The notes under the pieces are model-generated. The model was given only the letters and a program-made list of their open reading frames with translations, had not been told where the DNA came from and did no database searches. From a virus: a DNA stretch of 43,585 nt. The position numbers and the translations under genes are program-made. The stretch is taken from positions 1 through 43,585 of the IMG/VR virus record IMGVR_UViG_3300049484_000250; one strand, given 5' to 3'. Shown here piece after piece: positions 5,538 to 24,856 of this stretch. How positions within the stretch are numbered: the first letter of the stretch is position 1; each line of letters starts with the position of its first letter.

Positions 5538-5574
5538 TGTTGCCGTCCATTGTTTGAAGTATCAGCTTACGTTA

Positions 5575-5604: not shown

Positions 5605-6155
5605 GAGAAAAATATCTGCATGATGAGACATCCATCGGCGGAAGGATGCACACCTACCGTAAAAAGAAGGACTTTTCTACTATAGAACTTGCACAACTTA
5701 TTGAAATTTCACAAGGAACGTTATCTGGAATCGAAAACAATGTGTCAGCCCCACGCGCCGATACTTTTCAAAAAATAGTTCTGCATACGGATTTAAATGT
5801 TGCCTGGTTGCTGACCGGTAATGGTGAAATGCTCATCGGGTCGGAAAAAAATACAGCGGAGAGAGAGCCAGATACCGCGCATAGTCTGCTCGACGTTATT
5901 CTTGAATCCCAAAACCCGGTGTTGAAACGGGCTATAATGGCTAACCTTGAGGCTTTCAGCGGGACGGTAAAAACAGAGGAGCGCCTTGAAAATCTGGAAA
6001 AACAGGTGGCGGAATTAACCTGGATTGCGCAGCAGCAAAGCCGCGCGGCTACTGATCGCAGACAAACTACGGGGATTGGACCGGATGGGATTGAGCGGCG
6101 ATCGGGTGAGGATCGGAGAAGGCCTCATGGATCCAATAACGGCGGGCATAATTAG
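5598..6155 (+). CDS. CI-like repressor (XRE family)
   Basis: 185 residues from ATG 5598. The longer upstream frame would cross the operator, so I do not use it. Residues about 12-60 form an XRE-type HTH ('IELAQLIEISQGTLSGIENN'), followed by 'LNVAWLLTGNGEML', a hallmark of phage CI-type repressors. The C-terminus is a predicted coiled coil ('EERLENLEKQVAELTWIAQQ') and a basic, disordered tail. I see no peptidase Ser-Lys pair, so SOS-driven self-cleavage is not evident. The operator palindrome ends at the base before the start codon, which suggests autoregulation. A weak plus-strand promoter (TTGAAG, 17 bases, CATAGT, 5554-5582) could drive it. Confidence 0.8.
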   Translation: MSREKYLHDETSIGGRMHTYRKKKDFSTIELAQLIEISQGTLSGIENNVSAPRADTFQKIVLHTDLNVAWLLTGNGEMLIGSEKNTAEREPDTAHSLLDVILESQNPVLKRAIMANLEAFSGTVKTEERLENLEKQVAELTWIAQQQSRAATDRRQTTGIGPDGIERRSGEDRRRPHGSNNGGHN

Positions 6156-6163
6156 GTGATCCG

Positions 6164-6979: not shown

Positions 6980-6984
6980 AGCAC

Positions 6985-8040
6985 ATGGCCATCCGCCAAC
7001 TACCCGACGGCCGCTGGATGGTGTACTACCGCGTCCGGGGCGACGACGGCAAAAGCCGCGTTAAGTGGGAGGCATTCGGTCGCGGGGCGCTGGCTGAGGC
7101 GTGCGCGATCGCCAGGAACGCCGAGCTGGGGCTTCTGCGCCGCCGCCCGGCGAAACAATCCACAGGACCGAGCTTTATCGAGCTTGCCACCGAATACCAT
7201 GAAAAGCGCGGGCTCAACGCGAACAGCCGAAAGCAGCTCTGGATCAGGCTTGAGGCGCACCTATTCCCGGTTTTCGGGGCGCAGCCGGCCATGGCCATCA
7301 AAAGCCACATAGTGGACAACTACGTCGAAACCCGCCGCCTCGACGGCGTATCGGACGCCACGATCGCCCGCGAGTTGACCGACCTTAAATCAATTCTAAA
7401 CTGGTCCGTCAAGCGCAGCCCGCCGCTGATTACGGTGAACCCCATCGCAGCCTACAGCAAGCCCCGCACGCGAAACCCGATCGCACGCCCCCCCACGACC
7501 CGGGAGGCGCTCCGGATCCTGGACAAAGCGCGGCCCCACCTCAAGCGCGCTATCCTCCTATCATGGTATCTGGGGTTGCGGCCCGGGGCCGTCGAGCTGC
7601 TATCGCTCTGCTGGGATGCGGTCAACTGGGAAAGCCGCCGGCTGCTCGTGACATCTGCCCACAAGGGCGGCCCCCAGGCGCGCGAGGTTCCGATCCACCC
7701 CGAGCTTTACCACCAGCTCAAGCGGTGGCGCACAGAGGACCGGAAGCACGGCAGGCGGCACATCGTGCATTATTACGGCCGGGCGGTGAAATCTATCGGC
7801 AGGGCCTGGCGAGCGGCGGTCAAGGCCGCGAAGATCGGGCGGGCGATCAGGCCCTACGACCTGCGCCACCATTTCGTGACCAAGGCGCTCGAGGGCGGGG
7901 CGGATCTCAAATCGCTTTCGGAAGTTGTGGGCAGCTCGCCGGCGACGCTGCTCAAGTTTTACCAGCACGTGACCTCGGAGCAGCACCAGAAAACTGTCGC
8001 CCTGGTGCCCCCGCTGGCGAAGCCGCCGAAGAAGCGATGA
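6985..8040 (+). CDS. int: Tyrosine recombinase / phage integrase
   Basis: 351 residues with an N-terminal AP2-like arm-binding region (residues 1-50), a SAM-like core-binding domain (about 62-145) and the catalytic domain. Visible active-site residues are Arg199 (GLRPGAVELL), probable Lys227 (SAHKGG), Arg294 in 'YDLRHHFVT' and the nucleophile Tyr326 in 'KFYQHVT'. The usual His of the HxxR motif is Tyr291, and the usual LGHSS box reads VVGSS, so one histidine position looks lost. It ends about 150 bases before the tRNA-derived core, the usual arrangement for an integrase acting at attP. It starts five bases after the BRCT gene and is likely to share its message. Confidence 0.93.
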   Translation: MAIRQLPDGRWMVYYRVRGDDGKSRVKWEAFGRGALAEACAIARNAELGLLRRRPAKQSTGPSFIELATEYHEKRGLNANSRKQLWIRLEAHLFPVFGAQPAMAIKSHIVDNYVETRRLDGVSDATIARELTDLKSILNWSVKRSPPLITVNPIAAYSKPRTRNPIARPPTTREALRILDKARPHLKRAILLSWYLGLRPGAVELLSLCWDAVNWESRRLLVTSAHKGGPQAREVPIHPELYHQLKRWRTEDRKHGRRHIVHYYGRAVKSIGRAWRAAVKAAKIGRAIRPYDLRHHFVTKALEGGADLKSLSEVVGSSPATLLKFYQHVTSEQHQKTVALVPPLAKPPKKR

Positions 8041-10232: not shown

Positions 10233-10448
10233 TCACGGTAAAATCGGCATTGGAATCTTAAGGTCCGTCGTGATTGGCGGACTCGTGTCCTGCTTCACCT
10301 GGTCGCTGTGCTCCGCCTGGACCTCCAGGCGCACCGTTACGTTCTGTCAGTTGTCGAGAAAGAACTCGTATTTACGGTAGTTCGTGACTGCTGAGCACCC
10401 CGACAGAAGAAGTGCCGAGAAAATATAAAACGCGAGAATCGCTTTCAT
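10233..10448 (-). pseudogene. Opal-interrupted small lipoprotein gene
   Basis: From ATG 10448 (overlapping the upstream stop as ATGA) the frame encodes a lipoprotein signal with lipobox LLSGC (Cys18), then meets TGA at 10347-10349 after 33 codons. The same frame stays open for 37 more codons with protein-like content ('QNVTVRLEVQAEHSDQVKQD') and ends at TGA 10233-10235, just before the holin ribosome binding site. Size and position between two lysis-region genes would suit a small outer-membrane lipoprotein such as an o-spanin. The inner TGA may be a nonsense mutation, a sequencing error, or a readthrough or selenocysteine codon. Strictly read, the product is a 33-residue peptide. Confidence 0.55.
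10314..10331 (-). other. SECIS-like hairpin just after the in-frame TGA
   Basis: On the minus strand CGCCTGG-AGGT-CCAGGCG forms a seven-pair hairpin whose loop begins 23 bases after the in-frame TGA (10347-10349). Flanking GTGC and GCAC can extend it across a three-base bulge. Bacterial SECIS elements have a short stem with G near the start of the apical loop at about this distance. Resemblance only; G/C-rich hairpins arise often by chance. Confidence 0.25.
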
Positions 10449-10729
10449 GGCTTAGCCTCTTGCTGTTTTCTTATTTCCATCCGTTTTTTTATCAGCTCCG
10501 CGCGTCTGTCTTTCATGGCCTGGATCATTAACGCCCATTGTTCATTCCCGAAATAACCTGAAGCGAATCCGATGGTGTAGGCATCCTCCAGGCACATCGG
10601 TTGCATTGCCACATAATATTGAGCCGCCTCGTGCTCGGTAATCCGGTAATCAACATATGGGCTTTTGCATGGGGCTGCACAGCCCGTGACGATCACAAAT
10701 AGAGAGGCGAGTATCAGGATCGCTTTCAT
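10445..10729 (-). CDS. Small lipoprotein of the lysis region
   Basis: 94 residues from ATG 10729, preceded by AGG at suitable spacing; the ATG at 10741 would contain that site. The signal sequence has the lipobox 'VTGC' (Cys17), so the mature protein would be lipid-anchored. The C-terminal half is a charged helix ('MKDRRAELIKKRMEIRKQQE') likely to form a coiled coil. The stop is coupled to the next gene. A spanin or cell-envelope role in lysis is possible from context but not shown. Confidence 0.65.
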   Translation of the reverse strand: MKAILILASLFVIVTGCAAPCKSPYVDYRITEHEAAQYYVAMQPMCLEDAYTIGFASGYFGNEQWALMIQAMKDRRAELIKKRMEIRKQQEAKP

Positions 10730-10828
10730 GGTTAACCTCATCTATTCCCGGCAGCAGGCCGGTTCCGCCGGAACTTGAATGCTCCGGCGATCCCCCTTAT
10801 CGTGGCCCACCGCCGGGAAACCGTGAAA

Positions 10829-11275
10829 TCATTTCATCGCGATCGCAATCGAGCGGCCGCCTTCATATCCCGCCTGGAATGCTTTGGCGACGATCATCGG
10901 GATCGGCTTGACAGTCTCCATCTGCCCGAGCGGGTTGAACTGCGCCCCGTAGAGAGTGGCGAAGAAGGCTAAGTCGCCGGATAGTCCGTAGGGGTCGTTC
11001 TTTAGAGTCGGAATATTCTTTAGAAGCACCTCATTGAAAAACCCTTGCATCTCGGCAGCGGAGATTTCGGCCAGTCCATATGAGCGGCCCATCATGTCCA
11101 TCCAAGACTGCTCGATCGCAGGCGCTGCTTTCGGCTGCACCTTGTAGATGCCGATCGCCATGCCCTTGCCGGCGATGTAGGCCATCGCCTGATTGTTGGC
11201 GTCTCCCGTGATCTGCATTCCCGAGCAGCCGGCGACGAGCGCCACCATTGCCAACAGAATGATGATTTTTTTCAT
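10829..11275 (-). CDS. Lipoprotein, unknown function
   Basis: 148 residues from the second ATG (11275), seven bases after GGGAGG; the first ATG at 11281 is too close to that site. The N-terminus is a lipoprotein signal with lipobox 'VAGC' (Cys17). The mature part contains 'GKGMAIGIYKVQPKAAPAIE' and glycine-rich 'AGYEGGRSIAIAMK'. It resembles small lipoproteins in phages of Gram-negative hosts, but I can name no family. It is probably exported and lipid-anchored. The 87 bases between this gene and the next (10742-10828) hold nothing I can support. Confidence 0.65.
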   Translation of the reverse strand: MKKIIILLAMVALVAGCSGMQITGDANNQAMAYIAGKGMAIGIYKVQPKAAPAIEQSWMDMMGRSYGLAEISAAEMQGFFNEVLLKNIPTLKNDPYGLSGDLAFFATLYGAQFNPLGQMETVKPIPMIVAKAFQAGYEGGRSIAIAMK

Positions 11276-11287
11276 GTGCATGCCTCC

Positions 11288-11895: not shown

Positions 11896-12258
11896 CTATT
11901 CGATGACCCGAATGTTTATGGTCTTCTGGCCAGCTTTCACGGTTAACAAAAAAGGGGCGGCGGCACTCCAGCCGAAAACCGTCGTCGTAACACCCGTAGT
12001 TGAGTCCGTGACGGAGATGTTGTCGCCCGCCTGGGCCTCGCCCTTGTAGTTGCCCACGGGGGTTGCGGCGATATCGAACTTCATGGCGCCGGTGACAGGC
12101 ACTCCCTCGACCCACGCGCCCCAGGTGGCGCCGTTGTCGGATGAAAGCCGCATGCGGTACTTTGTCGCCACTTGCGGGTCGGCTATGATAAATGGCGTCG
12201 CCAGGGCCATGCCGGTGAAAGCAACCAAAATCGCTAACAGGACGAACAACTTTTTCAT
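11896..12258 (-). CDS. Secreted small beta-rich protein
   Basis: 120 residues with a clear Sec signal peptide ('MKKLFVLLAILVAFTGMALA', cleavage likely before Thr21) and a mature part with 'SSDNGATWGAWVEGVPVTGA', which looks like an immunoglobulin or FN3-type beta domain. AGGAGGG precedes the ATG. A strong terminator separates it from the upstream DGR genes, so it may have its own promoter. It is one of three signal-peptide proteins around the DGR. The function is unknown. Confidence 0.65.
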   Translation of the reverse strand: MKKLFVLLAILVAFTGMALATPFIIADPQVATKYRMRLSSDNGATWGAWVEGVPVTGAMKFDIAATPVGNYKGEAQAGDNISVTDSTTGVTTTVFGWSAAAPFLLTVKAGQKTINIRVIE

Positions 12259-12372: not shown

Positions 12373-12840
12373 TTAGCCCAACTTCTCAATTATTTCTGGC
12401 TCCGCCTCCATGGCCACTGCGCTCACTGACGTTTTCAGGCCCATCTTCGCCTTCTCGCGCCGGCCCCACTCAAGACAGTTCTCCACGTAATCGTTCCATG
12501 CAAAAGCCTCGGGAGCCGGAGAGATGCGCAGCATCTTTATTTCGTCATCGACGGAGTAGCGCTCGCGGATCTTGGCAACCACCTGGGCGTTGATGGTGGC
12601 CGTCTGTGGCAGCGCCTTTTCGATCGCACACAGGACCGGCACGAGTTGCTCTTTCAGCGCCGCACCGTCTACGGCCGTAAATTTTATAGCGTCCGCCTGT
12701 TTTGCAAACACCACTGACTCGGAAACCGCAACGTAGGTCGTTCCGTCGACAGTGCACAACTCTTTTAGTTCTTCATCCTTTGACAAAACCGGAGCAACCA
12801 GCGCTCCGGAGGCTTTTTGGTATGCATAGATTTTGGCCAT
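12373..12840 (-). CDS. Hypothetical protein downstream of the DGR, possible tail chaperone
   Basis: 155 residues with AAGGAG before ATG 12840. The N-terminal 30 residues form a small beta region ('MAKIYAYQKASGALVAPVLS'). The rest is helical and contains 'RERYSVDDEIKMLRI' and 'FAWNDYVENCLEWGRREKAK', a layout reminiscent of tail-fibre assembly proteins. It overlaps the 3' end of the reverse transcriptase gene by 68 bases in another frame. Position next to the variable protein and reverse transcriptase fits an accessory role, but no family is certain. Confidence 0.55.
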   Translation of the reverse strand: MAKIYAYQKASGALVAPVLSKDEELKELCTVDGTTYVAVSESVVFAKQADAIKFTAVDGAALKEQLVPVLCAIEKALPQTATINAQVVAKIRERYSVDDEIKMLRISPAPEAFAWNDYVENCLEWGRREKAKMGLKTSVSAVAMEAEPEIIEKLG

Positions 12841-13792
12841 TGGCGGACTCCTTTATGAGATTGAGCATATAGGTGATGGAGTGGGTACGTTTGGCGTGAC
12901 CCAAGAGTGAAACGACTGCCGTCTGTTTGCAGCGGGTAACCATGCGCTTGAACTTATAAAGACTGAACTTTCGGATGAAGCGCTTGCTGCGCCAGGTGCG
13001 GTATCCTACGAAGTTGACGCCCCTGGAGACGTTCGCGATGGTTGATTTGGATAATTCAAGGCGCAGCTCGTCTCGCAAAAACTGCACGATCATTGCGCGA
13101 TATTCGATGCACTGCGAACGGGTGAGCCCCACCAGAATAAAGTCGTCGACATAGCGCACGTAGTGCTTGATTTTTAGCTGACGCTTGACGAAGTGGTCGA
13201 GTGGGTTTAGGTAGATCAGCGCATAGAGCTGGCTCAGCAGGTTGCCGATCGGAATGCCGACCGGTGCGTCCATGACGGCGTAAAGCATCATCACGTCGAC
13301 CAGGCGACGGTCTTTAAGTTTGCGCTCGATCAGGTTTCGCAGCACAGCACGGTCGATCGAATAAAAGAACTTGCGAACATCGAGCTTCAGCGTGTAGCTG
13401 TCGGCAGTGCATTCCCGCAGCGATCGCTGTAAGTAGTCGCTTGCCCGGTGTGTGCCGTGGCCTGTCCTGCAGGCGAACGATGTATCAATGAACGTCCGGT
13501 TGAAAATCGAATACACAATCCGGTATATCGCGTGCTGGGCCACAATGTCGCGAAACGCCGGTCCGTAAATAACGCGCTCCTTGGGTTCGTAGATCACAAA
13601 CTTAAAATACGGCTGGGGGCGATAGGATCCGGAATTGATCTCGTTGTAAAGCGCCTGCAGGTTCGTTCCGAGGTGCTTTTCGAACTCAAAGCAGGCCGCC
13701 TTCTTGCGCTTGCCGCGGCGTGCGTCCAGGTAAGCCTGGTAAAGGTTTTTGTGGCTGAAAACGGTATCGAATAGGTTACCCGCTCGTTTCAT
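12773..13792 (-). CDS. DGR reverse transcriptase
   Basis: 339 residues from ATG 13792 ('MKRAGNLFDTVFSHKNLYQA' is the usual DGR-RT beginning), with AGGAG nine bases upstream. The RT motifs are all present: 'YEPKERVIYGPAFRD' (residues 68-82), 'LKLDVRKFFYSID' (Asp138), 'IPIGNLLSQLYA' (the xxxSQ motif that separates DGR RTs from group II intron RTs), 'YVRYVDDF' (catalytic YVDD 214-217) and 'GVNFVGYR'. It copies the TR RNA with errors at adenines so that the cDNA replaces VR. The frame is open for 102 more codons upstream through TR, but that part is non-coding. Its last 68 bases overlap the next gene. Confidence 0.95.
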   Translation of the reverse strand: MKRAGNLFDTVFSHKNLYQAYLDARRGKRKKAACFEFEKHLGTNLQALYNEINSGSYRPQPYFKFVIYEPKERVIYGPAFRDIVAQHAIYRIVYSIFNRTFIDTSFACRTGHGTHRASDYLQRSLRECTADSYTLKLDVRKFFYSIDRAVLRNLIERKLKDRRLVDVMMLYAVMDAPVGIPIGNLLSQLYALIYLNPLDHFVKRQLKIKHYVRYVDDFILVGLTRSQCIEYRAMIVQFLRDELRLELSKSTIANVSRGVNFVGYRTWRSKRFIRKFSLYKFKRMVTRCKQTAVVSLLGHAKRTHSITYMLNLIKESANGQNLCIPKSLRSAGCSGFVKG

Positions 13793-13793
13793 C

Positions 13794-13805
13794 GGAGAAT
13801 TCTCC
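13794..13805 (-). promoter_or_regulatory. Palindrome holding the RT ribosome binding site
   Basis: GGAGAATTCTCC is a perfect 12-base palindrome directly before the RT start. In RNA it can fold as GGAG-AATT-CTCC, hiding the GGAG ribosome binding site. The stem is only four pairs, so any effect on RT translation would be modest. Confidence 0.35.
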
Positions 13806-13827
13806 TGGTCGTCGGCTGAAACGCCTA

Positions 13828-13849
13828 CCAAAAAGGAGATTTCATCTCC
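13828..13849 (-). terminator. Weak terminator-like hairpin between TR and RT
   Basis: On the minus strand GGAGAT-GAA-ATCTCC (13849-13835) is a six-pair hairpin followed immediately by five T residues (13834-13830). It lies 75-90 bases after TR and before the RT start, so it may define the 3' end of a TR RNA or attenuate RT expression. Confidence 0.45.
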
Positions 13850-13924
13850 GATTTCGCCCAAGGCCGGACAGCGTATCCCTGTGGCTCCACTTTCTCCATT
13901 GCCGGAGTTTGAGGTTAGAAGCCG

Positions 13925-14039
13925 TAGTCCGCACGAAACCCCACATTGTTGTTCGAATTCGACCGGGCGTTGTTCCAATTCGACGCCCAGACGCCCGCAT
14001 TCGAACTGTTGTTCCAGTTGTAGCAGGAAATGAGGCATA
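13925..14039 (-). repeat. DGR template repeat (TR)
   Basis: A 115-nt repeat matching VR (14497-14611) with a constant offset of 572. Of 21 differences, 20 fall at adenines of the TR coding strand (28 adenines in total). The exception is T to C at 14030. Read in the VR frame, TR encodes asparagine-rich stretches (Asn-Trp-Asn-Asn, Asn-Ser-Asn-Asn-Asn), the usual AAC/AAT diversification codons. Like most TRs it lies between Avd and RT. The end away from the RT start shares the ATGCCTCA-type flank with VR. Confidence 0.95.
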
Positions 14040-14061
14040 TCGATGCGCTGCCCGTTCACAC

Positions 14062-14451
14062 TTACCATCTGTTCTCGTCCTTGATTTTTTTGATCCATCC
14101 GCCGATCATCTTTCCGAGCTCGTCTACCAGGGCGCTGATCGAAACGAACCGGCTTTCTTCCATCGAGCTATCCTGCTCGCCGTGCTTGTATCCGAAATAC
14201 CCGAGCTCATACGACAGATAAAGCTGCATGCGCAGGCGCTCGTGCGCAATGTCGAGCTCGGTTAAGGTGGTTTTCTTGTGATACCGTTTCTGGCCTTCGC
14301 TGATGAGATCGTAAATCTCATAAGCCGTGTTTCTGATCCTGTTTGAGAGCGCATACTTTTCGTGCCTTGGAAAGTGGTTTAGATAAATATTTAACAGCTT
14401 GGCGAGTTCCATGAACTTGCGGTTTAAACCCGCCTCGCTGTGAATCCCCAT
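14062..14451 (-). CDS. avd: DGR accessory variability determinant (Avd-like four-helix bundle)
   Basis: 129 residues from ATG 14451. The frame is open to a TTG at 14487 that overlaps the variable-protein stop, but that stretch covers the cruciform-like hairpin, so the shorter start seems likelier. The protein is all helical, with 'LNIYLNHFPRHEKYALSNRI' in helix 1 and a C-terminal 'VDELGKMIGGWIKKIKDE', matching the four-helix-bundle/Avd family (TIGR02436-like). In Bordetella phage, Avd forms a pentamer that binds RT and the TR RNA and is needed for cDNA synthesis. Here it lies between VR and TR, the standard DGR order. Confidence 0.88.
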   Translation of the reverse strand: MGIHSEAGLNRKFMELAKLLNIYLNHFPRHEKYALSNRIRNTAYEIYDLISEGQKRYHKKTTLTELDIAHERLRMQLYLSYELGYFGYKHGEQDSSMEESRFVSISALVDELGKMIGGWIKKIKDENRW

Positions 14452-14468
14452 CAGGTGCCAACCTACCC

Positions 14469-14480
14469 GCGCTATCGCGC
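14469..14480 (-). other. Hairpin downstream of VR (candidate DGR cruciform)
   Basis: On the minus strand GCGC-GATA-GCGC forms a four-pair stem with a GATA loop, 16 bases past the VR end and just after the variable-protein stop. DGR target sites often carry a hairpin with a GNRA/GRNA-type tetraloop at about this place to promote retrohoming. The stem is shorter than in described examples. Confidence 0.4.
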
Positions 14481-14483
14481 TAA

Positions 14484-16163
14484 TCAATCAGGGTAACAGG
14501 CCGCACGAAACCCCACAGTGGTGGCCGAATACGACCGGGCGAGGTCCCAACCCGACGCCCAGACGCCCGCACCCGAACCGGCGCCCCAGCTGTAGCAGGA
14601 AGTGAGGCATAGTTCGTTTTGGATATACTGGTAATAATAGTCTGCTCCAAACTGAGCCGTGCCAGAGGCGTCGATAGCGGAGACGCTCACCGGAAATCCT
14701 AAACCCGCCAGGAGCCATCCGGCGCCAGAGGTGGCGTTCGAAATCACCTGGGCGGTGCCGCTGCCCATCCGCAACCCCCATACGTTGTTCGGATAGGCGG
14801 TCTTGAATATGGGCACAAAGGCGTCCATCATGGCGGCAACACCGGTCGCGCCCCAATGGTCGGTGGCACCGGAGTTCCCGGACGTGAAGGATTTCATCGC
14901 GATGGACTGCTTGGCGGTGTAAAACGAACCTTTGGTTATGGTGCCGGGGTCGGTGGCGGGGACATAGGCGGAAGCGAATCCGGAGCTGTCCGCGCCATCC
15001 AAAGAAAACGAGTTGTCGTTTACTTTTGTTATCTTATAGATTTTTCCCGTCAACGGAACCCACACCGCATCCGTGATGGCGGTGCTGCCGACCTGCACAT
15101 AATCACCGGTAGCAAGCCCGTGCCCGGTCCAGGTGACGACGCAGGGGTTGGCGCGGGACAGATCCTCGATGGCGACGGTGGTAGCAATCGCGGTGATACC
15201 GAGCGAAATTTCGTACATCCCTCCATTCAGGTCGCACACCCCGGAGGGCTGCCCGTTGTGGGTCGTCTTGGCGAAGGGCTTCCCCGATCCGGTTTTGCCA
15301 GCGTTGGAGTAGCCGTCGGTAGTGTAGAGCACCGAGGTGTCGTTCGTGTCCGCGAGGGCGTTGTTATTGTTTCCCTTCGGAAAGTTTGATGCGGCCATGT
15401 ACCAGGCGCATGCGGGCGTGGCTGCGGACGATGCCTGGGCGTGAGCGAGGGAAAGCATGGCGAGTGCCGCATACTGAAACTTGCTCGGAACGTGAAAGAT
15501 ACTCGCGGCGTTTACGGCGCCATTAACCCCGTCGCGGGCGTGGGCAGCGTCGATCGCACGATAATAAGCGTTAGTTCCGCCGGAGGATGTCAGGTCGGCG
15601 ATGGGGTTGTGCGCTGCTGCGGTTGAAATCGGATTTCCGTTCGCAATCGAACCGGCACCCCAGCCCGTGCCAATGGCGATTTTACTCGATTTGTATTTGT
15701 CGAAGAAAAATCCGGGTTTCTCCAGGCCCCCGTCGATGAAGGCGCGGTGGAGGGCATACCCTGCAGCGTTTGCGGCGGCGGTGGTTGCGAAATAATCCGT
15801 GCCTTTAATCAGAACGGTGTTGACCGGATAGGTGGTCCCATCGGTTACGTAATAGTAAAACTTCGGGATCCAGACCATGATCGACCCATCGGCGTATTGA
15901 TAATTTCCGTAGTTCCAGCTGTATGGGTCGTCGTGGCCTGATAGGGCGGTGAAGCCGGAGGGAAGAGACGTTCTACTGGAAACACCGAACCCCATTGCTC
16001 CAGGGGTTCCGATGGTGCCAATGGGGGGTGGCAGTTGCACTGCTGATCCCCCAAGAATTATTTTTCCGCCAGAATAAACAACCGGGGGCGATGGGGGAAA
16101 TGCCAGGGACATCGCCGGTATCAGCGCTAACAGGATGGCCATAATCATGATGTTTTTTTTCAT
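14484..16163 (-). CDS. DGR variable protein, secreted, FGE/C-type-lectin-like
   Basis: 559 residues. The start has GAGGTGA upstream and a Sec signal peptide ('MKKNIMIMAILLALIPAMSL', cleavage near residue 21). The middle resembles formylglycine-generating-enzyme/sulfatase-modifying folds: 'SGVCDLNGGMYEISLGI' corresponds to the usual DLNGNVWEW box, and the end reads 'VGFRAACYPD'. That is the C-type-lectin ligand-binding fold used by DGR proteins. VR covers residues about 518-556, and 14 residues differ from the TR-encoded version, most of them Asn in TR. In Bordetella phage the equivalent is the tail-tip Mtd. Here the signal peptide instead implies export, as in cellular DGR lipoproteins. The gene follows tail genes and directly precedes Avd. 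Confidence 0.9.
   Translation of the reverse strand: MKKNIMIMAILLALIPAMSLAFPPSPPVVYSGGKIILGGSAVQLPPPIGTIGTPGAMGFGVSSRTSLPSGFTALSGHDDPYSWNYGNYQYADGSIMVWIPKFYYYVTDGTTYPVNTVLIKGTDYFATTAAANAAGYALHRAFIDGGLEKPGFFFDKYKSSKIAIGTGWGAGSIANGNPISTAAAHNPIADLTSSGGTNAYYRAIDAAHARDGVNGAVNAASIFHVPSKFQYAALAMLSLAHAQASSAATPACAWYMAASNFPKGNNNNALADTNDTSVLYTTDGYSNAGKTGSGKPFAKTTHNGQPSGVCDLNGGMYEISLGITAIATTVAIEDLSRANPCVVTWTGHGLATGDYVQVGSTAITDAVWVPLTGKIYKITKVNDNSFSLDGADSSGFASAYVPATDPGTITKGSFYTAKQSIAMKSFTSGNSGATDHWGATGVAAMMDAFVPIFKTAYPNNVWGLRMGSGTAQVISNATSGAGWLLAGLGFPVSVSAIDASGTAQFGADYYYQYIQNELCLTSCYSWGAGSGAGVWASGWDLARSYSATTVGFRAACYPD
14497..14611 (-). repeat. DGR variable repeat (VR)
   Basis: The C-terminal coding repeat of the variable protein and the recipient of mutagenised cDNA. 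Fourteen codons differ from TR, including Asn to Ser525, Gly527, Ala528, Gly531, Gly538, Asp540, Leu541, Tyr545, Ala547, Thr548 and Thr549. Changes are scattered AAC/AAT first- and second-base substitutions, as expected for adenine-specific errors. The VR end next to the stop (VGFR region, G/C-rich) is the probable initiation site (IMH), and TR differs from VR there beyond 14497. Confidence 0.95.
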
Positions 16164-16169
16164 TGCTGA

Positions 16170-16649
16170 TCACCTCGCCAGCTTTATGTAAATGGTTAAG
16201 ATATTGGCGGCGGTCCCCGTATCACCTATCGCAATCGTGAGCTTGCTGTTGACCGACCTGAATTTAGCAAGAGATGCCTCTGAAATCCCACTGGCCAAAG
16301 TGGAGAGGCTCATTTCTCCCGTTTTAAGTACCTGCATCCCCTGGGCCGATGTCAGAGTGACTGCCGCCGCAATGGTTGGGTAGGTCGTGGCATCATTGAC
16401 AGACCAAACCTCATACAAATAATATCCCTGCGCTTGATAAGGAACCGCAGGGTTGGTCTCCGGTATCTCATAGGAAGTAAAGGTTCCGTCCGTGTGGGCG
16501 ATGCAGTCCAGCTTGATAACCAACTGGTTTCCGTCCCCCTGCAGGGAATATCCACCCACGGAGATAGAGCTGGCGGCCAGGGATTCTGTAGGAATACCCG
16601 CGCAAACGACCAGGGCGATGATGGACAGGGCAATGATGAGCTTTTTCAT
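16170..16649 (-). CDS. Secreted protein upstream of the variable protein
   Basis: 159 residues with AAAAGGAG before the ATG and a Sec signal peptide ('MKKLIIALSIIALVVCAGIP', cleavage near Ala26). The mature part has a serine/threonine-rich beta pattern and the segment 'AVTLTSAQGMQVLKTGEMSL'. It is separated by six bases from the variable-protein gene and probably shares its message. It may be a partner of the exported variable protein. I recognise no family. Confidence 0.65.
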   Translation of the reverse strand: MKKLIIALSIIALVVCAGIPTESLAASSISVGGYSLQGDGNQLVIKLDCIAHTDGTFTSYEIPETNPAVPYQAQGYYLYEVWSVNDATTYPTIAAAVTLTSAQGMQVLKTGEMSLSTLASGISEASLAKFRSVNSKLTIAIGDTGTAANILTIYIKLAR

Positions 16650-16672: not shown

Positions 16673-17002
16673 TTACGGGGTAGCCCAGGCGGACCCGGTG
16701 TAATGGTAAAAAACATCCTCGTCCCATACCCAGACGGTCATGCCCTCGATCGGCGCAAGGCGATACCATGCCGACCCAAAATAAAAGACAAGGTCCTTGA
16801 CCGCAAAAGACGACCAGGCTCCGGTGTTGCCGCCGGCGCCGATGATATACATGCCGTTTTCGACCGGGCTTCCCGGGGGACTGGTGGGGATATCGCGCGC
16901 TCCGGTCAGGAAGGCCGTCAGGTATTTTATCGCCATGTTGACGGTTGCGTATTTCGATGCCTGGGAGTCGGTGAGCTCAGTGATTCCAAAAGCGTTTGAC
17001 AT
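16673..17002 (-). CDS. DUF2793-like tail-fibre-associated protein
   Basis: 109 residues with 'GMYIIGAGGNTGAWSSFAVK' and a C-terminus 'VWVWDEDVFYHYTGSAWATP'. This is the 'GAWA...YWNGSAW' pattern of DUF2793, a small domain found in phage tail fibre and host-specificity proteins. It follows the tail gene at 17005-18663 with a two-base gap, placing it at the distal end of the tail module. It is probably a structural fibre component. Confidence 0.65.
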   Translation of the reverse strand: MSNAFGITELTDSQASKYATVNMAIKYLTAFLTGARDIPTSPPGSPVENGMYIIGAGGNTGAWSSFAVKDLVFYFGSAWYRLAPIEGMTVWVWDEDVFYHYTGSAWATP

Positions 17003-17004
17003 GT

Positions 17005-18663
17005 TTACACGCTGACCCTTTTCACGATGCCACGGCCGACGACCGTGGACATCTGGTAAATATCGAAAGTGACCGCGCCGGCGGGGTAGCTGTCGGCCGA
17101 CTGCTGCGCGGCGGTGTAGGTGATGGTGGGGGTGCTCGCGGCAATGATGCGGAGCACGGCCCCGGTTCCCGAGTGGATCACGTCGACCTCGTAGGCCTCC
17201 GTGACCTCGTTCATGGGGATGTCGCCGCCATCGGGGAGGTCGGCGGTGATGAACTCGTAGCGGTCGCCGCGGCGCCAGGTGAGGACGACGTCGCCCGAGT
17301 CGTTGCGGCCGCCGTAAACCGCTTGGGCCGGAAAAGGCTCGAGCGTGAGGCCCCCGGTCGTGTAGGACATGGAAGCTCCGAGCGCGCCCGAAGCGTTCTT
17401 GACCCGGTACAAATAGCTTATACCGATCGCCGCGGTGTTCGCGCCGACGAAGTCCATACCGACCAGGCTGTTTAATTTGACGAACTTTTCGCTCGCGGCG
17501 TGTGTTCCCATAAATCGGGCTGTTCCGCGCAGTCCTCGCAGGAGCCCGGTCAGCGTGTAGGTGTTACCGGAAACTAAGGTCGCGGTCTTGAACTGGATAA
17601 TCTCCCAATTTCCGCCGGGGGATCCGATCGCGGCGAGGTTCGCACCATTGGCAAGATCGGCGTCGGTGGCGCTAGCGAGTGTTCCCTCTGAGGCGGCCAG
17701 GTCGACAACGACCGATGCCGAGTAATCGAGCACGCCCTCGATGCCGTTTCCAAGGGTCGAGGTGCAGCTACCCAGGACCGCGCGGGTGGCGTTCACGAAG
17801 CCGACGTCGCTATAGCTCGCCCCGCCGTCGGTCGAGCGCTGGATGGTGCCTCCCTTGAAGGAGGCGGCCAGGCCGTAGAGCGCGAAATAGAGGCCCGCGC
17901 TGCCGTGGTCCTCGGAGAGCGGCGGCAAGTCGAGTGCCAGGAAGCTGGGGATATAGGCGTCTGTCGTGAGGTCGATTACGCCGACCGTGAGGTCGTCGGC
18001 GGTCGCCCCGGAGGTGAACACCCCCGCCTCCAGGCCGTCGCACATGAAGTCAACAATGCCACCCTTGTCGGCCATATCCGCGACCTGCATGAGCTTGCCG
18101 TTAACGGTGATCGGGTCTCCCGGGGCGAGCTTCAAGAACTTATAGGTGGTCGAAAACGAGTACTTGTGCCTTCCGGCCCACATCTGCTTGAGGATGATCT
18201 CGACCTGCCGCTTGGCGTAGGTGTCGTCCAAAACGACCCCGATGGCGCTCGAGCGCGTGACGAATGCGGCCTTATCGACCCTGACCGCGTGCTGGGTCGC
18301 GATCTCATAGTCGCGCACCTTGCTCTCGTAGCTCATGGTGAGGTGGGTCGGCAGCTCGACGTCCATCGTGCGCGTCTCGATCGCACGGTCGGGTGCCTCT
18401 CGTCCTGCCGGGTGCGCCCGCAGCTCGGCCGCGGTGATCGTGGCGAGGCTGGTCGTGCTGCGCTTTTTAAAAACGAGCTTCCAGTCCTCCTCGCAGCCGA
18501 TGAAGTTGTAGGCGACCATGAGGGTCTCGAGCACGGTCCGGGCCGGGAGCTGGCGCGGGACCTGGTAGCCTATCACGTCGTCTGTGAGCTGCGTCACGTC
18601 GATCAGGTCGGACGTGATCCCGGCACGGCCGCAGACGTTGGTGACGATCGTGGAGAGTAGCAT
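17005..18663 (-). CDS. Phage tail tip protein (tail_3 / GTA-like)
   Basis: 552 residues from ATG 18663; the frame continues ten codons upstream but only this ATG follows the preceding stop. The first 250 residues contain 'QLPARTVLETLMVAYNFIGC' and 'TMDVELPTHLTMSYESKVRD', characteristic of the phage tail_3 domain of GTA and siphophage tail tip proteins. The C-terminal part, with 'TYTLTGLLRGLRGTARFMGT' and 'DVVLTWRRGDRYEF', matches the same family's tail-hub extension. It probably forms part of the tail-tip host-contacting complex, with receptor binding by the genes downstream. Confidence 0.75.
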   Translation of the reverse strand: MLLSTIVTNVCGRAGITSDLIDVTQLTDDVIGYQVPRQLPARTVLETLMVAYNFIGCEEDWKLVFKKRSTTSLATITAAELRAHPAGREAPDRAIETRTMDVELPTHLTMSYESKVRDYEIATQHAVRVDKAAFVTRSSAIGVVLDDTYAKRQVEIILKQMWAGRHKYSFSTTYKFLKLAPGDPITVNGKLMQVADMADKGGIVDFMCDGLEAGVFTSGATADDLTVGVIDLTTDAYIPSFLALDLPPLSEDHGSAGLYFALYGLAASFKGGTIQRSTDGGASYSDVGFVNATRAVLGSCTSTLGNGIEGVLDYSASVVVDLAASEGTLASATDADLANGANLAAIGSPGGNWEIIQFKTATLVSGNTYTLTGLLRGLRGTARFMGTHAASEKFVKLNSLVGMDFVGANTAAIGISYLYRVKNASGALGASMSYTTGGLTLEPFPAQAVYGGRNDSGDVVLTWRRGDRYEFITADLPDGGDIPMNEVTEAYEVDVIHSGTGAVLRIIAASTPTITYTAAQQSADSYPAGAVTFDIYQMSTVVGRGIVKRVSV

Positions 18664-18665
18664 TT

Positions 18666-20267
18666 TTATCCCTCGAACCCGTTGGTCATGCACATCCCAT
18701 TATTCGGATCCGGGTGTACGTCATGGGGCGGATTCAACGTGAAATAGGTGCTTGCCGGAAGCTGGACTCTTGTCACGTTTGTCGTTGAAATTGTAACCAA
18801 ATCTGACATTCGGAATTTATAATAACCGAGGCGATTTGAATGAATGGCCCATATATAGTCACTGAGGAGGCGGGGTTGAATGAAGTACATACGGCTAAAT
18901 TGCTCGCTTGTCGGGGCGGCGGCGTCGTGTACTATTGGCCCTACCTTGTAATAATTCCCGGTTGGGTAGAGCCGCGCCCCGCCGAGATAGCTCTCATAAA
19001 CATAGAGGATGTCGTAGCCTGCATAATAAACAAGATAGGTGTTTCGATAGATGCAAACCATATTTCCCGGCAACGTCGGCGACGCCGGGTTTTGGAGAAA
19101 ACCGATAATGGTGGCTCCTGATTGATTGTACGGAACCGTGTGATAATCCCCCCCCGTGTCAACCCATTGGGAAACAGGCGTGCCATCAGGCTCATAAATG
19201 CGGAAAATCCCACGCGTAGCGCCTTCATTGCCGGTCAGAATGAAACGCCCGGTGATCGGCTCACAGGCTAAACTATCGACAGAAGTACATCCGGCCGCGG
19301 TGAAGTAATACCGTACGGTGGTGCTCAGTCCGACAAATACATAAACCCGGAAAGTATAGCCGCCGGAGTAGATGTACCAGAGCTTAGCCAGGTCCCCGGC
19401 AGGCGTGATGGCGACAGCCGTGCTGAACTGTCCGCCATCATATGGATGCGTGAACGAAAGTTCACTGGTAACCGTGCCTGTCAGCCCGGCCATGACGCAG
19501 AGCTTGGTGGGAGAAACGTTGTTGTCTTGAATAAGTAGATTACCATGCGGTACAGGGTTGGATTCGATCTCGACCGTCGGCAACCCCTGGAACTCGCCGA
19601 TCGGAAAGTTAGGCAAAACAACGGTGGTCACTCCGCGGTAGGCCGGGGCGTCAGCCGCACCCAGAAGCGCCACGAGCGCGGTATCGGCGACCTGGCTCTC
19701 GCTGCCGAGGTGGATGCTGAAATAGATCGCGGAGCGGGCGATGGAGGTCTCCCAGTTCACGAAGGATAACTCGTTGTCCCCTTGGGGGTAGTTGGGAGAG
19801 AGCGGATTGCGGTAGTCCGCGAAGACCTTGCGGTTCATCCAGATGCGGGAGATGTTCTCGATCGGCTCGCAGAACGCGATTACTATTGTGCAGGTATAGA
19901 GCAACTCCATCTCGTAATAGCGCACGCCGTCCTGGCGGTGATTCGACCGGTTCACTGTCTTCACGATGGGGCTCATATAGATCACGTTTCCGGCCATGCG
20001 GCCGCAATCGTACTGGATGGGGATGGCGGTCCCCCAGGTGGAGGTCTGCACGCGGTTCTCGTGCGGCCGGATCGGCGGCGGAAAATAGATGTGCGGCTTG
20101 TCGGGGAAGAACGTCTGCCCCATAAAGCTGCCCCACATGTTGCCGATCGACCACCCAATGGAAGCTCCATACGCTGCCCCTGCCGGACCTCCATAGACGA
20201 ATCCTATGACGCCGCCCACGACGCCGCTGACCCCTCCCCATATATATCCGAAATATTGCGCCTGCAT
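18666..20267 (-). CDS. Tail hub paralogue B with extended C-terminus
   Basis: 533 residues from ATG 20267, which overlaps the stop of the paralogue upstream as TAATG. The longer frame on that strand reads antisense-like through the paralogue and is not coding. The N-terminus is a glycine-zipper membrane-like segment ('GGVSGVVGGVIGFVYGGPAG'), then a 220-residue region closely matching the gene at 20267-21031 ('HENRVQTSTWGTAIPIQYDC', 'NRSNHRQDGVRYYEMELLY'). The last 280 residues are unrelated and have repeated beta-strand segments like a propeller. It is probably a tail tip or internal virion protein. Confidence 0.7.
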   Translation of the reverse strand: MQAQYFGYIWGGVSGVVGGVIGFVYGGPAGAAYGASIGWSIGNMWGSFMGQTFFPDKPHIYFPPPIRPHENRVQTSTWGTAIPIQYDCGRMAGNVIYMSPIVKTVNRSNHRQDGVRYYEMELLYTCTIVIAFCEPIENISRIWMNRKVFADYRNPLSPNYPQGDNELSFVNWETSIARSAIYFSIHLGSESQVADTALVALLGAADAPAYRGVTTVVLPNFPIGEFQGLPTVEIESNPVPHGNLLIQDNNVSPTKLCVMAGLTGTVTSELSFTHPYDGGQFSTAVAITPAGDLAKLWYIYSGGYTFRVYVFVGLSTTVRYYFTAAGCTSVDSLACEPITGRFILTGNEGATRGIFRIYEPDGTPVSQWVDTGGDYHTVPYNQSGATIIGFLQNPASPTLPGNMVCIYRNTYLVYYAGYDILYVYESYLGGARLYPTGNYYKVGPIVHDAAAPTSEQFSRMYFIQPRLLSDYIWAIHSNRLGYYKFRMSDLVTISTTNVTRVQLPASTYFTLNPPHDVHPDPNNGMCMTNGFEG

Positions 20268-21031
20268 TAAGGCACGTACCCTGTGTTGATGCCCGGCGAT
20301 CCGGCCACAATCTCGTCCGAGTCTACCGGCTCGGCGTGGATCGTGGGGATCCCGCCATACTCGCCCACCGGGAAGTCGATGAACACGAGATAGAAAACAC
20401 CGCGATAGGCGGGCGTCTCGGCGGCCCCCAGGATCCCTGACAGGGTCGTATCGGCCGCCTGGTCCTCGTTGCCGAAGTGGATCGCGTAGAAGACCTCCGA
20501 GCGGGCAATCGAGGTGTCGAGGTTCCCCGACGCGAAGCCGCCGCCCACTGTCGGGTAGTATTCTCCCGCCGGGTCCCGGAAGTCGGCAAAGATCTTGCCG
20601 TTCACCCATAGACGCGCGAGCCCCTTGATCGGGCCCTCGCAGAAAGAGACCGCGAAAGTCGCCGAATAGGTCCGGATCATCTCGTAGTAGCGCACGCCGT
20701 CTTGCCTGTGCTTGCTGCGCACGATCGCCACGGCGAAATCGCTCATGTAGATGATGTTCCCCGCGAGCTTGCCGTCGTCGTACTGGATCGGCAGCGGCGA
20801 GCCGTAGGTGGAGATCTGCACGCGGTTCTCGCCCGGTTTCGGCGGGGGCGGGTGTGTGACGTCCTGCTTCTCCGGCCAGAAGACCTGCCCCGCGATCCCG
20901 CCGGCCGCTCCCCCGAGCGACATCCCGAGCGTCATCCCAGAGTAGACCCCGATCGTGAAGTAGCCGACGACCGCACCGATGATGCCGCCGACGACTGTCC
21001 CGATCCCGCCGGAGTATTGGCCCGCCGCCAT
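20267..21031 (-). CDS. Tail hub paralogue A
   Basis: 254 residues with a glycine-rich hydrophobic N-terminus ('GGIGTVVGGIIGAVVGYFTI'), 'PGENRVQISTYGSPLPIQYD' and 'RSKHRQDGVRYYEMIRTYSA'. These segments match the gene at 18666-20267 almost in register. The family is common between the DUF2163-like protein and tail tip genes of GTA-like tails. Its role is probably tail-tip assembly or membrane insertion. The duplication implies specialised copies, with copy B carrying an added C-terminal region. Confidence 0.7.
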   Translation of the reverse strand: MAAGQYSGGIGTVVGGIIGAVVGYFTIGVYSGMTLGMSLGGAAGGIAGQVFWPEKQDVTHPPPPKPGENRVQISTYGSPLPIQYDDGKLAGNIIYMSDFAVAIVRSKHRQDGVRYYEMIRTYSATFAVSFCEGPIKGLARLWVNGKIFADFRDPAGEYYPTVGGGFASGNLDTSIARSEVFYAIHFGNEDQAADTTLSGILGAAETPAYRGVFYLVFIDFPVGEYGGIPTIHAEPVDSDEIVAGSPGINTGYVP

Positions 21032-21034
21032 GTT

Positions 21035-21904
21035 CTAATCCTCGGTCCATTTTTGATTCGCCGGAACGGTTAGGGCCTTGTCGAGCCCCGGGATATGGGG
21101 GAATCCCCTGTAGTTGTCCTTGTTAAAAAAGCGCGTCTTGCAGGTCTCGAAGCGGCGATCGCAGCCTGCGACGAGCGTGAAGGCGTTGGCGTTTGCGACC
21201 GTGAACGGCATGGGCTCGAGCAGTGTCACCAGGTTGGTCGCCGCCACGTAGCTTTCCACCTGCATCGAGATCCCGGAATTGAGACCAGACGAAAACGTGA
21301 TCTTGCCGTAGGCGTAATAGCCCTCGACCTGTCCGGACGCAGCCCCGGAGATCGTGAACACCTTGTTGCTCGTAACGACGTTTACCGTTCCGGCCTTGGT
21401 GTAGGATGCGATGGTTACCTTGCAGCGGGCATCCCCCAGGGTGGCGTCGCACTCGGGCGTGTAGATGCGGCCGATGCTCGTAACCAGGAGCTGCGTCAGC
21501 GAGCGGAACTCGATCCGGGCCTGGTTGTCGCGGATCTCTACTTCTCCCAGGCGCCCGCGGGCGAGCTTGACAATTCCCATGCTCGTGTCGGCCCAGTTTA
21601 TCAGAAACGTCCAGGCTTCGGCGTGGTCGTAGAGTCCGGCTCGCAGCTCGGCGTCGGTGCCGGTAGCACTCGCAAAGGCCATCTCGAGGTCGAGCGAGGC
21701 CGGGGTGAGCGATGCGTTCTGGCGATAGGGCGAGGGACGTCCGCTCTCGAGCGGGGTGTAGGTGACGCCGTCATAGACGATTGCTTCGTCGTGGTCGGTG
21801 TAGGCCTTCACCACGGCGTCGCGGCGCTGGATCTTCCAGCACATGGCGAGTGTCATGAGCTCGCCCTCGAGGTGCGTCTGCAGCGCCGAGGAGATTGTCC
21901 TCAT
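21035..21904 (-). CDS. Phage tail protein, DUF2163/BR0599-like (GTA gp14-like)
   Basis: 289 residues beginning 'MRTISSALQTHLEGELMTLA' and with a C-terminus 'LVAGCDRRFETCKTRFFNKD' then 'NYRGFPHIPG'. These are hallmarks of the DUF2163 plus Phage_BR0599 family, the tail-hub-adjacent protein of gene transfer agents and many siphophages. The paired cysteines may coordinate a metal. It follows the DUF2460-like gene by one base, as in GTA clusters. Confidence 0.88.
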   Translation of the reverse strand: MRTISSALQTHLEGELMTLAMCWKIQRRDAVVKAYTDHDEAIVYDGVTYTPLESGRPSPYRQNASLTPASLDLEMAFASATGTDAELRAGLYDHAEAWTFLINWADTSMGIVKLARGRLGEVEIRDNQARIEFRSLTQLLVTSIGRIYTPECDATLGDARCKVTIASYTKAGTVNVVTSNKVFTISGAASGQVEGYYAYGKITFSSGLNSGISMQVESYVAATNLVTLLEPMPFTVANANAFTLVAGCDRRFETCKTRFFNKDNYRGFPHIPGLDKALTVPANQKWTED

Positions 21905-22557
21905 CAGGTATCCCCGTATTTCAACTCGATCAGCGGAACCTGGGCGGCCCCGCTGTTGTAGTCGTTTATGTTGACCGAGAGCTTGTCGGTGTCGAAGCGG
22001 CAGGGCACGTCGAACTCGAAGCCTGCGGTCACCGCCTGGCCGGTGGTCGGGATGTTGCCGGCGGTGAAGGTGACGAGTCCGGTCGTGTAGTTGATGGTGT
22101 AGTGGGTGGTCTCGGTCTTGGTCGTCCCGGCGACGGCGACCAGCACCGTTCCCGAGATCGGCTTCAAGATCTTCCGGCTGCGGGTGTAGGCGCCCTGGGT
22201 GTAGGTCTTGGCAAGCTGGAAAGTCGCGAGCGCCCCGGTGCCGGTTCCGATCGCGCAGTCGGCCGCGGCCGGGGTGGCCGTGCGGGAGCAGCTCTTGAAG
22301 TCCATCCAGTCCTTGTAGCGAAACCCGACCGCCTTACCGGCAACCACGTGGAAGAAGTTTAGCAAATTCTCAAGGCGCACGAGCGTGTTGACCCCGTAAC
22401 TGACGTCAAACTCGTGTCTCGGGTAGCTCCAGCGCTGGTTGCGGCTCTCGCTGCCGGAGTCGGTCTCGACTACGGTAGTGGACCAGCCAGGCCCGCCGCG
22501 GGAGCCGTAGCTGATGTCATCGGGAAATCTCGGGGCTTCTATGAAGGAAGTCGTCAT
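21904..22557 (-). CDS. Phage tail protein, DUF2460 family (GTA gp12-like)
   Basis: 217 residues from ATG 22557; the frame extends into the upstream gene. The N-terminus 'MTTSFIEAPRFPDDISYGSR' and 'RWSYPRHEFDVSYGV' are typical of DUF2460 (TIGR02217), the distal tail protein. The C-terminus 'FEFDVPCRFDTDKLSVNIND' also fits. It probably forms the ring at the tail tip. It overlaps the following gene by one base, consistent with coupling. Confidence 0.9.
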   Translation of the reverse strand: MTTSFIEAPRFPDDISYGSRGGPGWSTTVVETDSGSESRNQRWSYPRHEFDVSYGVNTLVRLENLLNFFHVVAGKAVGFRYKDWMDFKSCSRTATPAAADCAIGTGTGALATFQLAKTYTQGAYTRSRKILKPISGTVLVAVAGTTKTETTHYTINYTTGLVTFTAGNIPTTGQAVTAGFEFDVPCRFDTDKLSVNINDYNSGAAQVPLIELKYGDT

Positions 22558-22558
22558 G

Positions 22559-24856
22559 TCAAGCGTTCCTCTGGCCGGCCCGCTGCAGGCTCGCAAAGAG
22601 CGCGGTCTGCAGGTGGTTCAGGCTTTCGCGGTCCATGCGGCCGCCGGGGGCCGCCACGTTGATGGTGACGTTATTGGTGCTGCCGGATTTCCCTTTGGCG
22701 ATGACGCGCTCGCCCCGCTGGAGAACCGCCGGGAATTCGTCCGGAGCCAGGCCGCCATGCAGCCTGGGAGCGGTTGCGATCATCCAGGCGGGCATCTCGC
22801 GGTAGGGTCCTGATCCACTTCCCACAGCGCCACCGGAGTGCATCACGGCCCCCCAGTCGCCCGTCTGACCGCCCCACGGCACCCCGGCGCCGGATCCCAT
22901 GCCGGTCGGCGTCGATCCGCCGCCGTATGCAGCAGCCAAGCTCGATCCGGCCTTGAACAAAAGACCCATTAACTGCTCGGATGTGCTCTGGGTAGCCATG
23001 CGCACCATGCCGGCGATCACAGACTGCACCATGCCCTGAAAGGCCTCCTTGGCGGTCTTGGTTCCAGTAACGAACCCGGCAAAGGCGTCCGCGAAGGATT
23101 GGCTCATAATGTTCATCGAGTCCTTGAATATTTCGTTCGCGCGCGTGGCATCGTCTATTCCTTCGACGTATGTCTGCCACCAGCGTTCGTCGTTCGCCAT
23201 CTGGTCGGCTTTGGCGATCGCGGCGCGCTGCTCCTCGACCGACTGCCCGTAGGCCTGCTGCGATGCCTGGTTGGCGCCGTAGGACTTGGCGCGCATGGAC
23301 TCTATATCGTAGGCCTCCGATGGGAACTGCGTGCTGGCCGTGGCGGCAAATTCCTTGATGTCGATCTTGCGCTTCTCGGCCCTATACCAGCGATCGAGCG
23401 CTGATTTGTCGGTGACAAGTTTTTGATATTCTTTTAACTGCTCCTCGAGCTTGAACTTTTCGAACTCGAACTCTCCCTCCACCTCTTTTCGATAGTCTGC
23501 CCAGAATTTCTTGACCTCGTTCTGTGCCTCTTTAGACAGCGGCATCTCCCCCGGCGCTTGAACGTATTTATGCCGTGAGGCATAATCCGAATCCTCCGCA
23601 ACTTTTTCCGCAACTGGAGCCTTGGCCTTGCGCTGGTCGAGGTAAACTGCGAGCAGGTCCTTCTCGAGCTGTATGGTATTTTTCAAACCTTCGATGTATG
23701 CGGCCTGATTGGGCAACTTCGCATCCATCAAACTTTCTTCAAAGGCTAGTTTTTTCTCGTTTTCTGCGATGGAATCCTGCAGCACCTGGCCGTAGTTGCG
23801 CCGGTCGGGCTCTGTTATGCGCATTCCTAACGCGCCGCCCGCGCCGATCGCGGCCCCCGCCGGACCAGCGACGGCATAGCCCAAGATCGCGCCCCATGCC
23901 TCTGGAGGAAGCTTTCCCATGGCTGTGACAATAGATGACATACCGCTTGCGATCCCGGTGAAGTAGCCCTTGACCTGGTCGCGGTTGTCCACCAGCCACT
24001 TCATACCGACGACCAGGTTCTGACTGAAATCGTTCGCCATCTTGGTCATGTCGGCCTGGAACTTGGGATCCTTCACGGCCTCGGTCAGCGTCTTCATGGC
24101 CTCCGAGGCACCGAAGACGATCTGGGTCAGTGCCGGGTTGAAAGCCTTGCCGAACTCTACTTCGAAGTCCTGCACGTAGCGTTTGAAGCTGTTGATCTGC
24201 TTTCCGGCGGTTCCCATGGCCGCCTCATAGGCCCCGGAGATCTGCACCCCGGCCTTGAGCACCGCATTCATGCGGGCCGTGGTTTTTTCCTGTTCGGTCA
24301 GCTGCTCGACGGTCTTTCCGAGGCTTGCGGCCATTTGACGATGGGCCTGATCGAAACTGACGGTGAGACCCATGTTGCGGGTAATCTCGACGCTGCCCGC
24401 CTGGACCGCGTGCATCAGGTTCAGCATGGCCTCGGAGGAGTTCATATCGCCGATGACGGCCGCATCCTGGGCGACGCGGGCGAGCTGGGTGGATTTTCCA
24501 AGGTCGAGGTTGGACTGGATCATCTGCGCCATCACCTGGCGCGCCTCGATCCCGGCGATCCCGGTCTTTCGCAGGCCCTCTTCGAAGCCTTTCATCTCCT
24601 CCTGGGTATAGGAGGTGTTTTTACCCAGGCGCTCCAGCACGACGCCGAGCGTTTCGTAGCGCGCGGCGGCCATGGTGGCGTCCTTGGTGAATTCTGCCAC
24701 CTTGAACAGTCCGAAGGCCACGGCTACTTTGGCAGCAATGCTCTCCAGGCTTCCGATGCTTTTAGTTGCACCATCGATGTTGGCCTTGAAGCTGTTGAAG
24801 GCCTGCTGGGAAATGTCCTTCCCGGAGAGGATTATTTCCATTTTGGCGTCTGACAT
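22559..24856 (-). CDS. Tail tape measure protein
   Basis: 765 residues. Long helical N-terminal region with 'SIGSLESIAAKVAVAFGLFK' and a lambda-type tape-measure segment ('TLGVVLERLGKNTSYTQEEM'), a central hydrophobic glycine/alanine stretch ('ILGYAVAGPAGAAIGAGGAL') and a C-terminal lambda-gpH-like domain ('GFVTGTKTAKEAFQGMVQSV'). Its length would set a tail of roughly 115 nm if the usual 1.5 angstrom per residue holds. It directly follows the chaperone pair and the gene at 24857, as in siphophages. The stop overlaps the next start by one base. Confidence 0.92.
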   Translation of the reverse strand: MSDAKMEIILSGKDISQQAFNSFKANIDGATKSIGSLESIAAKVAVAFGLFKVAEFTKDATMAAARYETLGVVLERLGKNTSYTQEEMKGFEEGLRKTGIAGIEARQVMAQMIQSNLDLGKSTQLARVAQDAAVIGDMNSSEAMLNLMHAVQAGSVEITRNMGLTVSFDQAHRQMAASLGKTVEQLTEQEKTTARMNAVLKAGVQISGAYEAAMGTAGKQINSFKRYVQDFEVEFGKAFNPALTQIVFGASEAMKTLTEAVKDPKFQADMTKMANDFSQNLVVGMKWLVDNRDQVKGYFTGIASGMSSIVTAMGKLPPEAWGAILGYAVAGPAGAAIGAGGALGMRITEPDRRNYGQVLQDSIAENEKKLAFEESLMDAKLPNQAAYIEGLKNTIQLEKDLLAVYLDQRKAKAPVAEKVAEDSDYASRHKYVQAPGEMPLSKEAQNEVKKFWADYRKEVEGEFEFEKFKLEEQLKEYQKLVTDKSALDRWYRAEKRKIDIKEFAATASTQFPSEAYDIESMRAKSYGANQASQQAYGQSVEEQRAAIAKADQMANDERWWQTYVEGIDDATRANEIFKDSMNIMSQSFADAFAGFVTGTKTAKEAFQGMVQSVIAGMVRMATQSTSEQLMGLLFKAGSSLAAAYGGGSTPTGMGSGAGVPWGGQTGDWGAVMHSGGAVGSGSGPYREMPAWMIATAPRLHGGLAPDEFPAVLQRGERVIAKGKSGSTNNVTINVAAPGGRMDRESLNHLQTALFASLQRAGQRNA

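Follow-up and report, generated by a model that had tools for sequence, protein, structure and literature searches.

Predicted export signals on the variable protein and neighboring gene of a diversity-generating retroelement from a temperate tailed phage

Diversity-generating retroelements (DGRs) are, to our knowledge, the most powerful targeted diversifiers of proteins, and those of phages are taken to serve attachment of the virion to its host. Surface-displayed DGR proteins are also found in bacteria, where Legionella LdtA and Treponema TvpA are lipoproteins. The phage DGRs closest to the one described here include that of Bordetella phage BPP-1 (mtd-avd-TR-brt), which shares with our locus the gene order, Avd, a CLec target, and a GRNA-loop hairpin after VR, and that of a Thermus aquaticus prophage, which has the same gene order. 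According to a 2018 survey, the signal peptides or transmembrane regions seen in bacterial DGR proteins are missing from those of phages (PMC6199706). In a catalogue of more than 30,000 DGRs, the viral targets belonging to three clades are given as mostly tail proteins, and signal peptides or membrane segments are reported for cellular targets; a few leader-bearing viral ones may be listed in it (PMC8144416). Our literature search for signal-peptide tail fibers gave nothing relevant, and no leader was found on Mtd or on the variable proteins (VPs) examined from other annotated phages with DGRs.

We analyzed the IMG/VR virus record IMGVR_UViG_3300049484_000250 over its 43,585 nt, hereafter the window. 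It carries the phage hallmarks integrase, repressor, terminase, portal, and head and tail genes. A temperate phage is indicated by the plus-strand genes at 5550-8040, which encode the repressor, a tyrosine integrase, and a protein with a BRCT domain. A BRCT protein adjoining an integrase is unusual. Three tandem paralogues of about 130 aa (..EYDFAKDGG..; 27957-28352, 28408-28800, and 28849-29244) adjoin a head gene and are perhaps decoration proteins. The DGR lies entirely on the minus strand in the order VP-VR-avd-TR-RT, with the VP gene placed after the tail-gene block at 16673-24856, next to tail-tip genes. An earlier note on this DNA had described a complete phage DGR in this order. We found the same order, and the claim of completeness held in every test that could be run. 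The interval assigned to the DGR in that note, 13794-14611, spans TR, avd, and VR but omits most of VP and the reverse transcriptase (RT). That the whole system is a complete, canonical DGR of a temperate tailed phage, with a variant target, appears highly probable.

The TR/VR pair and the proteins of the retroelement

VR (14497..14611, minus strand) lies in frame at the 3' end of the VP gene, and TR (13925..14039, minus strand) is offset from it by 572 nt. The two align without gaps over 115 nt, with 21 mismatches, 20 of which fall at the 28 TR adenines. Length, offset, and counts are identical to those of the earlier note, including the 20 of 28 adenines reported as changed. Over 114 nt, 19 of the 20 mismatches are at the 27 TR adenines (hypergeometric p = 2.0e-14), and our scan lengthens the pair to 116 nt, with 22 mismatches, 21 of them at the 29 adenines. 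The sole change away from adenine, T to C at 14602, is near the 5' edge; as the first core A change comes only after it, at 14590, the transferred tract may not reach it. TR and VR are the only long repeat within 11.5-17 kb, and a search of IMG/VR with the degenerate TR pattern found no further copies. Read in the VP frame, TR has ten AAY codons, and a stop is unreachable from any A-bearing codon.

A plain duplication followed by ordinary mutational divergence could also yield a repeat pair of 82% identity spaced by 572 nt. The adenine bias refutes this reading, to which we give next to no probability. The bias is not confined to the window: a search of related genomes for TR/VR pairs, suggested in the earlier note, found a canonical pair upstream of the RT in 90 loci, the window included (individual related loci are given below as L numbers). 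In the 73 distinct related pairs, 1,197 of 1,254 mismatches are at A, in a scan that itself favors A mismatches.

The RT gene (12773..13792, minus strand) encodes 339 aa. Its product has a hit to phrog_1423 (E = 2e-101) and another to 8ub7, the structure of the BPP-1 RT (E = 8e-56), to which its SQ and YxDD catalytic motifs align. Both motifs read in the earlier note, IGNLLSQ and YVDD, are present and intact, and the enzyme is homologous to BPP-1 Brt, with 37.5% identity; the nearest annotated phage RT is that of Pseudomonas phage Bise (60%). The avd gene (14062..14451, minus strand) begins with an ATG at 14451; an alternative TTG start at 14487 is also open and overlaps the VP stop. The Avd-like protein proposed earlier is borne out by PF22296 (E = 1.5e-16; 61 bits, cut-off 40) and by phrog_3206, "Avd protein of DGR" (E = 2e-21); the match to NCBIfam NF033474 (E = 1e-19), at 70.8 bits, is below the model cut-off of 80.

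An open reading frame of 155 aa (post-RT ORF; 12373..12840, minus strand) begins inside the 3' end of the RT gene, and homologues directly follow the RT in about 50 related loci. Searches of Pfam, NCBIfam, PHROG, and PDB gave no match above noise and no known fold. BPP-1 also has a small ORF overlapping the RT end, Bbp4, but no kinship could be detected between the post-RT ORF and Bbp4 or the post-RT ORFs of the other phages compared.

RNA elements and activity of the lineage

The unmutated 3' tract of VR, TGTGGGGTTTCGTGCGG (14501..14517, minus strand), is identical in TR and is likely the IMH, a role assigned by analogy with BPP-1. A hairpin with a GRNA loop, GCGC-GATA-GCGC (14469..14480, minus strand), follows 16 nt after VR. 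In BPP-1 this loop consensus matters (PMC3240598), and in a DGR the hairpin is expected 4-34 bp after VR. The perfect stem in the window is only 4 bp, compared with 7-10 bp in that work. Of 70 distinct related DGRs, 56 have a GRNA loop on a paired stem; in shuffles the rate is 3.6%.

Between the 3' end of TR and the start of RT, the spacer is predicted to form a structured RNA of seven helices (13801..13927, minus strand). In the alignment, 96.4% of cells are paired, a measure favored by deriving the structure from the same alignment; the covariation measures are unaffected by this. Double changes occur at 16 of 31 pairs, and covariation is 0.422, versus 0.18 when shuffled. None of 500 shuffles reached any measure, and slid controls fell to 36-49%. 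Of the related loci searched with the covariance model, R1, most have the spacer RNA, as does phage Bise (E = 1e-30), which was not used in model building. Bise differs from the window in its contractile tail and in its VP, which has another N-terminus and no leader. R1 gave no match in BPP-1 or in the tested Vibrio, Aeromonas, Pseudoalteromonas, Bacillus, Helicobacter, and methanogen viruses, and a search of the window with Rfam 15 matched no family. A TR-Sp-RT fusion protein was considered and rejected, as a single open frame is found in only 23 of 68 distinct loci and is not general.

With these parts, the locus would work by mutagenic retrohoming. A TR-containing RNA with a folded spacer would be copied by the RT together with Avd, and TR adenines would be misread during copying. 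The cDNA would then be exchanged for VR in the 3'-terminal part of the VP gene, with the invariant 3' tract and the hairpin after it as guides. About a dozen residues in the lectin loops of VP would be randomized in this way.

The earlier note had called the DGR active, arguing from one genome. At the level of the lineage this stands: where two contigs share an identical TR, nearly all of their VR differences sit at TR adenines (19 of 19 differences in L021/L074, 16 of 16 in L054/L058, 5 of 5 in L015/L029, and 5 of 6 in L010/L012), from which we conclude that the lineage is active. We left out two pairs, L013/L015 and L063/L064, which differ in VR at some non-A sites, because they also differ in the VP flanks. 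For the copy in the window, continued activity is a reasonable inference from its intact parts. It could instead be a relic, its VR diversified in the past and now frozen, as the loss of TR, RT, and most of avd in the close VP relative L111 might suggest. We think this unlikely, given that the window retains every part in intact form (RT, Avd, TR, hairpin, and spacer structure) and that TR plus spacer are 91.5% identical to those of L002, with the AAC runs kept.

The L111 locus (6380-6967) is a DGR-loss derivative in which a VP with VR and the GCGCGATAGCGC hairpin, as in the window, are accompanied by an avd remnant of about 24 aa and, directly after it, a homologue of the post-RT ORF; TR and RT are absent from its 11.5 kb. 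Two other pairs, L026/L027 and L038/L040, have near-identical flanks and TRs that differ at 4 and 8 sites, respectively, with identical VRs in L038/L040. Either TR has changed in these loci or TR and VR were mixed in assembly.

The variable protein and predicted export signals

The DGR target (14484..16163, minus strand) is a 559-aa FGE-type C-type-lectin protein with the C-terminus VGFRAACYPD, in which the VGFR ending given in the earlier note is recovered. In a structure search with Foldseek, the AF2 model of the mature protein (pLDDT 86) had TaqVP of the T. aquaticus prophage (5vf4; E = 6e-12) as its best match among solved structures. The TaqVP fold contains three inserts particular to it, whereas the window VP has a whole FCCH-like domain (aa 324-411; 14931..15194, minus strand; phrog_584, E = 2e-10) and an export leader; the TaqVP-like fold with this insertion also sets it apart from Mtd. 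Foldseek matched aa 324-411 to the FCCH region of UBA6/UBA1 (ubiquitin E1) and to the T1 tail tube. In a 33-member VP alignment the domain is missing from L019, L050, and L087, and we therefore regard it as an optional insertion.

The first residues of VP form a predicted Sec signal peptide, MKKNIMIMAILLALIPAMSLA (16101..16163, minus strand), with n, h, and c regions and an S-L-A cleavage site, after which cleavage is predicted. The cleavage region, AMSLA/FPP, has no Cys and hence no lipobox. The start ATG is preceded by GAGGTGATC, a Shine-Dalgarno sequence with a 9-nt perfect anti-SD match, and the previous in-frame stop is two codons upstream. Like the window VP, LdtA and TvpA are CLec variable proteins with a signal peptide, but they are cellular lipoproteins, while the window VP belongs to a tailed phage and lacks the lipobox cysteine of LdtA-like targets. 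It is encoded after the tail-gene block, as Mtd-like targets are, but does not share their absence of signal peptides and transmembrane segments (PMC6199706).

Signal peptides were called by a home-made rule-based scan, not by SignalP, and false positives exist (L049 and L071). The scan also predicted signal peptides in the gene adjoining VP upstream (16170..16649, minus strand; 159 aa), for which no homologues were found in IMG/VR or phages, and in a gene downstream of the DGR (11896..12258, minus strand; 120 aa). The latter is 66% identical to its copy in L129; compared with L002, its leader has diverged and its mature part is conserved, as expected of a cleaved signal. All five minus-strand export-signal genes of the window are within 6.2 kb around the DGR (10.4-16.6 kb), with a background of 5%. 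The earlier note mentions neither the VP leader nor these genes, which fall beyond the interval it gave. Two predicted lipoproteins are encoded at 10829-11281 and 10445-10741, the first of which is similar to Cor, a lipoprotein of superinfection exclusion (phrog_1119; the NF047972 score falls slightly short of its cut-off).

We built a VP-core tree of 72 VPs with the leader excluded. The window VP clusters with those of L003, L112, and L111 (support 93/97). All members of this clade have a predicted signal peptide, which is kept although the leaders have diverged in sequence. On the tree, the signal-peptide label changes 2 times, versus 4.9 times when shuffled (0 of 500 shuffles), and L015 is a second leader case; most related phage VPs have ordinary N-termini without a leader. 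The upstream neighbor of VP also carries a leader in all six hand-checked loci (the window, L003, L015, L111, L112, and L128). Under a fixed rule, leaders on VP and on the upstream gene are associated (table 5,2/4,52; Fisher p = 3e-4), the two exceptions being L049, a likely false positive, and L112, where the upstream start was chosen too long. In L111 and L112, VP and its upstream neighbor are the only two export-signal genes. The upstream signal-peptide genes of different loci have no detectable homology to each other, except in L013/L028. Between L013 and L015, the DGR and downstream genes are near-identical and the N-terminal part of VP and the upstream gene differ; the front of VP has been exchanged as one module, with the DGR left in place.

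On this evidence we lean toward export of VP and of the product of its upstream neighbor by the host Sec system. VP could nevertheless be an ordinary Mtd-kind tip of a virion tail fiber, with a hydrophobic leader that acts as an assembly or membrane-contact segment and not in export. VP does directly follow the tail-tip genes, no second large fiber gene was seen in the window, the mature N-terminus of L111 is followed by a fiber-like stretch, and most relatives are plain fibers. Moreover, virions assemble in the cytoplasm, and an exported virion adhesin fits badly with this. We hold the tail-fiber reading possible but somewhat doubtful in view of the n, h, and c regions with their S-L-A site, the leader on the upstream neighbor in six of six loci, the retention of the signal peptide in the clade, and the downstream 120-aa gene with its diverged leader on a conserved mature part. 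As read from its sequence, VP is apparently an exported, non-lipoprotein adhesin beside a predicted exported partner.

A possible exported target in a phage DGR

If VP does pass through Sec, the producing cell would present the diversified lectin outside its cytoplasm, or the lectin would join virions only once the cell has lysed. The leader may serve display on the producing cell or virion attachment after lysis, or it may act otherwise. A broader reading, on which we are evenly divided, is that a clade of temperate phages has switched its DGR from a cytoplasmically assembled tail fiber to a Sec-exported adhesin with an exported partner. Such a switch would bring a hypervariable lectin to the envelope or the surface of the producing cell, where it could act in lysogenic conversion, as a decoy, or in post-lysis virion attachment.

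The difference from the phage DGR examples described so far is the predicted export signals on VP and its neighbor. The lineage also yields a well-supported spacer-RNA structure, a conserved post-RT gene, and, in L111, a natural DGR-loss derivative. If the target of a phage DGR carries an export signal, "phage-encoded" would no longer be equivalent to "virion-displayed."
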